Translations under genes and position numbers: made by a program
Origin: Kitasatospora herbaricolor
GTDB taxonomy: Bacteria > Actinomycetota > Actinomycetes > Streptomycetales > Streptomycetaceae
Length of the DNA stretch: 64,000 nt
Assembly (NCBI RefSeq): GCF_030813695.1
Contig: NZ_JAUSVA010000002.1
Location: 3,844,001 to 3,908,000 of the forward strand
Direction of reading: 5' to 3'
The notes under the pieces: generated by a model
Database searches by the model: none
What the model was told of the DNA's origin: nothing
The model's input: only the letters and a program-made list of their open reading frames with translations
In this document: positions 52,217-57,583 of the stretch, piece after piece
How the letters are laid out: each line of letters opens with the position of its first letter
Position numbering within the stretch: the first letter of the stretch is position 1

Positions 52217-55200
52217 TCAGTCGTCGATGAAGCGCACCACGGCGTGCTCGGTGGTACCCGCACCCGTCGGGTACGAGAAGTGCTCCCCCGTCTCGGACCA
52301 CAGCAGCATCCTGGCCAGGTCCGAGTTGGGCGAGATCCGCACCGCCTCAGGGCTCGGCATCGAGGAGACGCTGTACAGCACGATCTCCGGATCGCCTTGG
52401 TGCTCCACCCCGACGAGCGACCCGGGCACCATCACGCCCACCCCGGTGAGCCTCGGATCGGGGGTCACCTCGTCCAGGTAGGCCCGCAGGAAGTCCCGGC
52501 GCTCCTCGTCGCGCGCCCGGGCCTGGTCCTGCCCGGCCCGTCGGGCTGCCAGCGCGGCCGCGTCCACCGCGACCACGACCTCGGCGGGAGCCCCGATCCG
52601 GTCCTCCAGGAAGTGCAGCTCCCGCTGTGCCCGCCGGTAGGCGTTCACCGAGACGGCTGTCACGGGGAAAGAGAACCGGGAGGCGCTCGGGGCGGTCCGC
52701 GCCGCCGGTACCGGTCGGCCGACCGCCGGGGCGGTGGCGGCGGCAGGGCCGGTGGCAGCGGGCGGGGCAGCGGCGGCTGCCCGAACCGGCCCGGCGGCCG
52801 GCTCCGGCGCAGGCACCGGGCCGAGGCGCAGCACCCCGCGGCGGGCCCGCTCCCCCGGCAGGGCGCCGGCCGCGGCAGCCGCCGCGGGGCCCGGAGCGGG
52901 GTCCGGAGCGGGGTCCGGAGCGGGGTCCGGAGCGGGGTCCGGAGCGGGGTCCGGAGCGGGCCGGACCACGGGCGCCGGCACCCGGACGGACCCGGGCGCC
53001 CCTGCGGCGGCGGGTACCGCCCCGGCTGCCGGCCGGGGCGCCGGGGGGACGGCGGGAGCGGGCGCGGGCAGTACTCGGGCAGCGGGCGCGGGAGCAGCCC
53101 CGGAAGCAGCCCCGTGGGCCCCTTCGGGCTCGATCCCGAGCCGGTCCAGCTCGGACCAGAGCGGCTCCAGAGCGCGGTCCGGATCCAGGAAGAACCGGCT
53201 TCCCCTGATCCGGACGAAGGTCCAGCTCACCCGCTCCAGCTCCCGCTGCCGGGCGGCGTCCTCGTCGGCGTTCCCCTCGTGGTGGAAGGCGTCACCGTCG
53301 CACTCCACCGCCAGCCGGCGGGTACCGCCCTCGACCACCAGGTCGATCCTGAACCTGCCGGCCGGATACTGCGGCCGGACCCGGAACCGGCGACCGCGCA
53401 GGGCCAGGAAGACCCGCTGCTCGAAGAGGCTGTCGAAGGCCTCGTGCCGGGTGTCGGGGGTGACGTCGTCCAGGCCGAGGCCGTCCTGCTCCTCCGCCGG
53501 GCGGGTGCAGTAGTCGAGGTAGCGGCGGCGCAGGTCGTTCGGCCCCAGGTCGGTGGAGACCACACTGTGGAACAGCCAGATCTGGTCCCGGGCCCGGGAC
53601 ACGGCGACGTTGAGCCGCTGCTGCATCGCCTCGCTGGCGAACGGACCGGGCCGGCGCGGACCGTCCGCGCCCGCCAGGCTGACGACCAGGCTGATGAAGA
53701 CGATGTCGCGCTCGTCCCCCTGGAAGTCCTCGGCGTCGCCGACCCGGATCCGGCGCTGCTGCCGTTCGTCCACGGCGAGCCGTTCGACCAGCAGGTCCTC
53801 GATCTCCTGGCGCTGACCTCCGCCCAGCATGGTGATGACGCCCATGCTCCGGCCCCGGTAGGCCGGGTCGGCGCAGCACCGCACGATCTCCTCGACCAGC
53901 CGCTCGGCCTCGGCCCGGTTGCGCTGCCGCTGGCCGGTGCCCTCGATGTACGCGCCGGGGACGTGGACGGTCCGGATCGGCGGCAGCCGGTCGGCGCCGT
54001 ACTGCCGCAGCGGCTGCAGCTTGCCGTGGTAGGAGAGCTCGTTGGAGAAGCCGATGATCTCCGGCATGCAGCGGAAGTGTTCCCGGAGCATCAGCCGGCC
54101 CCGGCCGCCGGCCAGGCCGCTGGCGATGTCGAAGAAGCTGGCCGTCGGGCTGAACAGGTTGCGCCGGGAGGCCGGCAGGGCGTCGAGCTGCCGGTTCTGC
54201 AACTGGAAGAGCTGTTCCTGGTCGACCCCGACGTTGGCCGGGCTGACCTGCTTGTCGTCCCCCACCACGACGATCTTCTTGCCGAGCCAGGCCAGCAGCA
54301 GGGCCTCCGGCCCGGACTGGCTGGCCTCGTCGATGATCACCACGTCGAATCGCCCGGCCTCGTCCATCGGGACGGTGGCGGTCACCTGGTACAGCGGCAT
54401 GATCCAGGCCGGTACCGCCCCCTGGCACTCCCGCAGGCTCTCCCTGGCCTGCGCCCGGTAGCGGTGCGCGTACTTGCCGGTGCCCTTCCCGAACCGGCCG
54501 ACGCTCTGCTGGTACGAGGTGAGCGCGACCGTCTCCTGGTCCGTCAGACGCCGCAGGCAGCCGTACCAGGACCGGTCGGCCGCGAGCTTCTCCAGGGTGA
54601 TCCGGATGTCGGCGTCCGCCTCGGCCAGCACCGCCCGCTGCTTCTCCTCGGCGGCCGGGTCGGTGAGGTCACGCATCCGGGCGGACCAGGCGGACCAGGC
54701 CCAGGCCTGCTCGACGTGCCGCAGCCGGCTGTCCCACCGCGGGTCACCGGGCCGCTCCGCGAGCTCCCGGGCCAGCGCCGGAAGCACGGACGCGACCGGG
54801 CCCCGGACCTCTTCGAAGGCCTCCTTGAGGACGAGCGAGCCGCGCAGGGCGTCGAGCTCGGCCGCGATGTCCCGGTACTGCGCGCTCTCCCGGGCCCGGA
54901 CGGCGTCGAGCAGTCGGCGCAGCGGTGCGTACGCGGTGCCCGGGCGGTCGGCCCAGCCGACCAGGGTCTGCTCCAGCGCGGCCAGTTGCTGCCGCGGCAG
55001 TTCGGCGGCCCGCAGGGCGGCGCGGGCCCGGAGCGCGTCGCGCAGCGCGTCGCAGGTCGCGGGTTGGTTCCAGGGCTTCACCGTCAGCACCGGCACCGCG
55101 GCCAGCGCGGCGACCAGGTCGGAGCGTCGCTCGGCCAGCTCGCCGAGCCGCCGCAGCGCCGCGGTCTGCGCCTCCAGTTCCGCGAGCCGGCGGGTGGGGG

Positions 55201-57583: not shown

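Follow-up and report, generated by a model that had tools for sequence, protein, structure and literature searches.

The window analysed here is a stretch of 64,000 nucleotides from the actinobacterium Kitasatospora herbaricolor (contig NZ_JAUSVA010000002.1, positions 3,844,001 to 3,908,000), whose minus strand encodes, next to rpoC, a large protein that combines a superfamily 1 (SF1) helicase, a nuclease and a C-terminal domain of the Gre family. An earlier reading of the DNA letters alone (hereafter, the sequence-only reading) had delineated the same frame to the nucleotide. The features of the locus are as follows.

52217..57583, minus strand: whole gene of the helicase-nuclease-Gre fusion, 1,788 aa, TTG start (open reading frame; 95% identical orthologue in genome G051)
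56456..57583, minus strand: N-terminal domain, aa 1-376, with a predicted long helix (141-188) and a beta-rich part, of no known family (AF2 model, pLDDT 77)
56144..56434, minus strand: RecA1 domain of the helicase, aa 384-480, with the Walker A motif GPPGTGKT at aa 404-411 (AAA_11/AAA_30)
53549..54358, minus strand: RecA2 domain of the helicase, aa 1076-1345, with motifs II (DEASQ), III, IV, V (FQGDE) and VI (NVAVSRAR) (AAA_12, alignments)
53132..53431, minus strand: Vsr-type PD-(D/E)XK nuclease (REase_MTES_1575), aa 1385-1484 (PF18741, E=7e-27)
52676..53131, minus strand: Pro/Ala-rich low-complexity linker of about 150 residues, aa 1485-1636 (sequence)
52220..52675, minus strand: Gre domain, aa 1637-1788, consisting of a helical hairpin (about 1646-1705) and an FKBP-like C-terminal domain, CTD (about 1717-1788) (profiles, AF2 model, Foldseek)
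57785..57830, minus strand: near-perfect inverted repeat with a 21-bp stem, between rpoC and the gene (self-alignment, RNA fold)
57846..61736, minus strand: rpoC, which lies upstream and does not belong to the system (open reading frame; 96-100% identical orthologues)

The G051 orthologue is 1,792 residues long, and dN/dS is below 1 for every domain of the fusion gene. The residues before 384 contain no convincingly supported Pfam domain, and the model of the N-terminal 376 residues, which is of fair quality, matches no PDB structure at E <= 0.001; this absence is no evidence that the predicted fold is novel. The helicase is spread over the AAA_11 (384-447) and AAA_12 (1163-1337) matches (E ~1e-16 in Pfam), with motif II at 1081, motif V at 1287 and motif VI at 1325. 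All six motifs of Upf1-like SF1 helicases (I to VI) are present and near-identical among the aligned homologues, and the Walker A motif is identical in all of them. By sequence, the nearest solved structures are the SF1B enzymes Sen1, Upf1, IGHMBP2 and DNA2, as well as a bacterial RNA-helicase-like protein.

The nuclease matches PF18741 at 1387-1479 with 93.8 bits against a cut-off of 38.2, and DUF559 with E=5e-7. The candidate catalytic residues E1388, D1414, E1427, D1429 and H1434 are kept in the window protein, in G051 and in the relative at locus L001. The SF1 helicase and the Vsr/DUF559-like nuclease proposed by the sequence-only reading, including the conserved acidic residues on which it had made the nuclease depend, are thus both present.

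The Gre assignment is less immediate, given that the window sequence alone matches PF01272 below threshold (E=0.12, at 1745-1783). We therefore aligned the C-termini of 21 homologous loci with that of the window protein (n=22). Each of the 22 aligned C-termini individually matches PF01272 (best E=2.9e-6), and the resulting profile finds Thermus Gfh1 in the PDB (E=5e-4; the alignment spans positions 32-170 of 175). Two proteins of the window genome itself also score with the profile, GreA with 46 bits and a second Gre-like protein with 32; when the profile columns are shuffled (100 profiles), the highest scores on these two proteins are 2.4 and 6.0, respectively, and reversed targets reach 3.0. 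The second Gre-like protein stands alone (G000:C2:9073738, L026) and carries the tip GDLADQADE, compared with GDLKENAGY.

The AF2 model of the domain (pLDDT 81, pTM 0.68) begins with two helices (model residues 15-33 and 44-74), after which comes a beta/alpha domain. In a Foldseek search of the PDB, the 14 best matches are all Gre-family proteins (E <= 3e-4, best 1e-7), namely, GreA, GreB, Gfh1, a Gfh1 chimera, a Gre protein from Nitrosomonas and one entry that is labelled a new RNA-polymerase-interacting protein; HelD comes at rank 15. A comparison by Z-score also places the Gre families first, at Z 6-7.6, a range that common arrangements also reach, so that this result is supporting rather than decisive; matches of the CTD alone include FKBP folds, at lower Z. 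Together with the shuffled and reversed controls, the specificity of the Foldseek matches leads us to reject a chance origin of the Gre similarity. The Gre-like C-terminus that the sequence-only reading had derived from motif matching therefore holds up once 22 homologues are considered, and its last 90 or so residues adopt the Gre C-terminal fold in the AF2 prediction.

The two halves of the domain differ in the evidence behind them. By its sequence signature, the globular CTD is an FKBP-like domain of Gre type, which accounts for 35 bits on the host GreA. The hairpin half gives 2 bits or less and has no sequence signal on its own, and the helical hairpin is predicted from the AF2 model, where its helices align with those of Gre hairpins, although shorter. 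The first helix in particular is shorter than that of GreA, and the GDLKENAEY tip with D41 and E44, which GreA requires for transcript cleavage (PMC7527559), is absent; the tip instead has a single invariant Asp (D1674 in the window protein). The serine equivalent to GreA S121 is invariant, and the residues around this rim-binding serine are conserved; the GreA S121P mutant is impaired in, or loses, RNAP binding (PMC7527559). In the loop ISPNSDL at 1750, the window branch has SD or TD where an SP follows this serine in Escherichia coli (S124-P125); the Streptomyces branch keeps the SP. Across both branches, the Gre domain is under purifying selection (dN/dS 0.15-0.29), and in the comparison with G051 constraint is weakest on the Pro/Ala linker (0.6). 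In one genome (L012/L052), the Gre domain lies in a different frame just downstream, split from the helicase-nuclease by an apparent frameshift.

The sequence-only reading had also attached functional weight to the proximity of rpoC, and here the comparative evidence points the other way. The gene starts 262 bases past the end of rpoC on the same strand, at about the same distance as in G051, and the inverted repeat between the two folds into a GC-rich hairpin of -61.5 kcal/mol (z -7.2), with close copies downstream of rpoC in L001 and L041; it is probably the end of the rpoBC unit. The gene directly follows rpoC in the window genome and G051 only. In L001, rpoC and the gene are 5.9 kb apart, with DUF4097, a histidine kinase, a response regulator and other genes in between; a DUF4097 gene lies within the next 1.5 kb in 20 of 29 other rpoC 3' flanks of the genus; and no rpoC was seen in the examined flanks of 23 Streptomyces and Actinacidiphila loci. 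A functional link via this adjacency is thus unsupported, and the adjacency looks incidental. Because the position after rpoC is uninformative, the idea of polymerase binding must rest on the Gre domain itself.

The surroundings look like an insertion hotspot: rpsL is on the same strand as rpoC at a distance of about 39 kb (window 18432-57846), and unrelated genes fill the interval, among them a two-component system, a WGR/PQQ-propeller protein (45800-47470), a Helicase_C_3 protein (43147-45711), and P450-like and Sir2-like proteins. Beside the gene, a 169-bp direct repeat (94%; 51213-51381 and 51991-52159, minus strand), each copy of which holds an identical tRNA-Met (CAU) gene (51256-51330 and 52034-52108), flanks a NUDIX open reading frame on the plus strand (51294-52037); G051 has matching repeats in the same place.

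The fusion is rare and its core is widespread. Searching 84,980 species genomes with the window protein recovered 24 actinobacterial loci, 21 of which supplied the C-termini aligned above. In a survey of 70 genomes of the genus with a 434-aa core as query, three encode the Gre type, and in 10 others a core relative lies elsewhere (9 read as Gre-less, 1 broken). Of 395 genomes sampled from the class, 48 contain the helicase-nuclease core, which also occurs on 319 plasmids from many bacterial groups; no copies of the core were found in 50,697 phage records, and no plasmid copies of the Gre tail were found at 1e-6. In the maximum-likelihood tree of the core, all Gre-bearing proteins fall into one clade of 31 rows (support 100/99), which also holds two Gre-less proteins, G771 and G900, as the sister group of the window branch (97/85). 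The simplest reading of this topology is that Gre was gained once and lost in G771 and G900; two independent gains are possible.

Most relatives of the core end within about 70 residues past the nuclease or run into low complexity. Some carry other tails: an Lsr2 DNA-binding domain in L073 (1.6e-8) and L089 (6.8e-15), and a topoisomerase C4 zinc ribbon in L075 (1.4e-10), all above the Pfam cut-offs, as well as winged-helix-like stretches that have no significant Pfam support in L074. Lsr2 recognises AT-rich xenogeneic DNA. The C-terminus thus looks like an exchangeable targeting module, and the combination of one effector core with varied tails directed at nucleic acids or at the polymerase is the best contextual argument for Gre as a targeting device.

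The genomic neighbourhoods of the relatives, named from PADLOC, NCBIfam and Pfam (GmrSD_N/GmrSD_C) matches, support a defence affiliation. In 22 of the 23 Streptomyces and Actinacidiphila loci (L002-L024), a UvrD-like helicase of 720-750 aa adjoins the gene (one of these neighbours is itself cut by a contig end), and in the 23rd the contig ends first; full-length DrmA is found in 17 of the 23 and a GmrSD-type restriction enzyme in 19. The Drm proteins are genuine, with DrmA at 1445 bits (NF038325, cut-off 950), DrmB at 693 (NF038324, 240) and DrmC at 235 (NF038319, 133). The recurrent Streptomyces cluster (e.g., L002 5375-24208) has the order GmrSD, a protein of about 290 aa, Gre-helicase, UvrD-like helicase, DrmA, DrmB, DrmC; for the protein of about 290 aa, Pfam, NCBIfam and PADLOC give no match. 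Few loci share genes outside the cluster, which indicates that the cluster sits in different places. In L018, L022 and G124, the UvrD-like gene is present and DrmABC is absent from the examined flanks, so that the UvrD-like helicase is the tighter partner.

In sequence, this partner is closer to UvrD/PcrA/GajB. Its identification as HelD or HelR was rejected because the scores of the respective models, about 36-56 bits, fall far short of cut-offs that run from 419 to 1100. It resembles ArmD of ARMADA (PMC12458937), a UvrD-type helicase with a distinct N-terminus; an N-terminal RelE-like domain as in ArmD was looked for by Pfam and PDB profile and gave no match. No known defence gene adjoins the window gene, and no Drm, GmrSD or UvrD-like genes lie within the examined flanks of the window gene, L001 and L041. 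Elsewhere, the window genome encodes two full-length relatives of the UvrD-like protein, with 50% and 45% identity, the latter being an open frame of 810 aa (L151, G000:C2:4520500-4540000).

The same DISARM-linked branch has lost nuclease residues. In L002-L024, EQ is changed to QQ and VECDG to VACDG (or IACDG/LACDG), and the His is lost; the basal relative G124 keeps VECDG and has lost the other two nuclease sites. The degenerate nuclease domain is under strong purifying selection (dN/dS 0.04-0.07), from which it follows that it keeps some role, probably in binding nucleic acid or a partner. This branch-specific loss is undescribed in the literature searched.

Among known systems, the core is shared with Hhe, ProA and the PADLOC candidate PDC-S37, in all of which a Vsr-type MTES_1575 nuclease comes after an SF1 helicase of Upf1 type; the window protein differs from them by its N-terminus and the added Gre tail. 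In PADLOC, PDC-S37 matches best (E 3e-61). The full-length equivalog cut-offs are not reached for ProA (NF058533, 204 of 1500 bits) or Hhe (NF042953, 159 of 2000), and both models chiefly match the helicase and nuclease part, so that the protein is not as such of the DUF4011-helicase-Vsr type with which the sequence-only reading had compared it. The MTES_1575 nuclease itself takes its definition from a transglutaminase-helicase-Vsr-wHTH protein (PMC3710099).

Among published ideas, the nearest is that of the TPR-GreA/B-C-PIN conflict systems, putative immune proteins, mostly encoded by stand-alone genes, that are predicted to act on hijacked RNAP (PMC8195603, eLife 2021). Like the window protein, these fuse a Gre C-terminal domain to a nuclease effector; unlike it, they lack a helicase, have the GreA/B-C half only, and are built on a PIN RNase and TPR core. 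To GreA, GreB and Gfh1, the window protein is linked by profile homology (to host GreA and Gfh1) and by its modelled fold, an FKBP-like domain preceded by a putative two-helix hairpin, but its Gre domain resides within a 1,788-aa enzyme, the first helix is shorter, and a single Asp replaces D41 and E44. HelD and HelR would be alike in their working, an SF1 helicase fold with a hairpin that enters the RNAP secondary channel, and we claim no membership in that family: HelD is UvrD-like and lacks a nuclease, whereas the window protein has an Upf1-like core and true Gre homology. The Streptomyces relatives adjoin genuine DrmA, DrmB and DrmC of DISARM, whereas Drm genes are absent beside the window gene, and the fusion was not found as a described DISARM component in the literature searched. 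No publication on a Gre-helicase-nuclease fusion turned up in a search that was thin on subscription papers. Both the effector core and the idea that Gre serves in immunity have precedents; their combination is undescribed in the literature searched.

Given this anatomy, we infer docking at RNA polymerase, a nucleic acid substrate, cutting and an anti-phage outcome, and propose, with a probability of about 0.5, that the protein is a stand-alone anti-invader effector of the Upf1-like helicase and Vsr-type nuclease family, with a Gre targeting tail that docks at RNAP. The Gre CTD would dock on the beta' rim helices at the secondary channel, and the hairpin would enter the channel. Being short and devoid of the D41/E44 pair, the hairpin probably does not efficiently stimulate transcript cleavage and may rather sense or hold a stalled, backtracked or hijacked polymerase. 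The flexible linker of about 150 residues would let the ATP-driven helicase load on exposed nucleic acid, DNA or RNA of the transcription complex, and the nuclease would cut the phage or plasmid template under transcription. Where the nuclease is degenerate, as in the Streptomyces branch, the protein may instead recruit partners, the adjacent UvrD-like helicase and DrmABC.

Docking is favoured by the Gre homology, the invariant S121 equivalent and the purifying selection on Gre compared with the relaxed linker, and the match of the profile to the host's own GreA suggests that the host polymerase is the natural partner. A role in defence is favoured by the neighbourhood of the relatives, the sporadic presence in the genus and the UvrD-like relatives in the window genome, and a role in targeting by the Lsr2 tails of two relatives and the zinc ribbon of one, with PMC8195603 as a precedent. 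The proposal is weakened by the coiled-coil half, which lacks sequence support, the SP to SD change in the window branch, the lack of known defence neighbours of the window gene and the degenerate nuclease in most Gre-bearing members. The Gre-less close relatives G771 and G900 further imply that the core can work without Gre.

The most serious alternative, which we consider unlikely, is a Sen1-like terminator or conflict resolver, that is, a cellular transcription-replication or transcription-repair factor in which the Gre tail would bring a Upf1/Sen1-type translocase to stalled RNAP to strip the RNA or dislodge the complex, the nuclease being accessory or acting on R-loops. The closeness of Sen1 and Upf1 to the helicase core is consistent with such a role, and so are the apparent dispensability of the nuclease in the Streptomyces branch, where the helicase motifs are intact, and the place of HelD, an SF1 motor reaching into the secondary channel, next after the Gre family in Foldseek. 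However, a gene confined to 3 of 70 genus genomes, found in varied chromosomal places and embedded in a conserved DISARM/GmrSD/UvrD neighbourhood is unlike a housekeeping factor, and the core of the family is often plasmid-borne and matches defence models.

Another version of polymerase binding strikes us as quite improbable: the Gre tail would be a sensor or decoy on the secondary channel, and displacement or modification of the polymerase by factors of a phage would release and activate the helicase-nuclease, with no active cutting at the transcribing complex. The variation of tail modules on one core fits this scheme, and a Gre domain devoid of the cleavage acids could bind and wait at the end of a flexible linker; however, the autoinhibition and triggering are hypothetical, and the sequence does not separate a guard from a tether. 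That the C-terminal fold is a protein-protein or stability module only, with no binding to RNA polymerase, would agree with the weak coiled-coil half, the SP to SD change, the lower-Z FKBP matches of the CTD and the two Gre-less sister relatives, but agrees less well with a Gre-specific profile (46 bits on host GreA), the absence of proteins from outside the Gre family among the top 14 Foldseek matches and the conserved residues around the rim-binding serine, and we regard it as quite improbable.

Returning to the anti-invader effector docked at RNA polymerase, the exchangeable tails admit a broader and more tentative reading, for which the odds are below even: the proteins would form a family of transcription-guided immune nucleases in which the C-terminal tail chooses the DNA. 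Lsr2 would direct the core to AT-rich foreign DNA, the topoisomerase zinc ribbon to DNA in a different state, and Gre to RNA polymerase, so that the enzyme would inspect and destroy actively transcribed invader templates; one branch would have lost the nuclease and turned into a polymerase-bound recruiter for the UvrD-like helicase and DISARM DrmABC.

Most DNA-targeting immune systems recognise the sequence, modification or ends of DNA. If the helicase-nuclease docks on RNA polymerase, what it recognises in DNA would be transcription itself, a principle known so far from prediction only (PMC8195603). The Gre, Lsr2 and zinc ribbon tails on one core represent a natural domain-swap series for target choice, and the branches with intact and degenerate nucleases separate recruitment from cutting. 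The Streptomyces cluster, moreover, hints that the DISARM DrmABC module may have a partner so far unrecognised.
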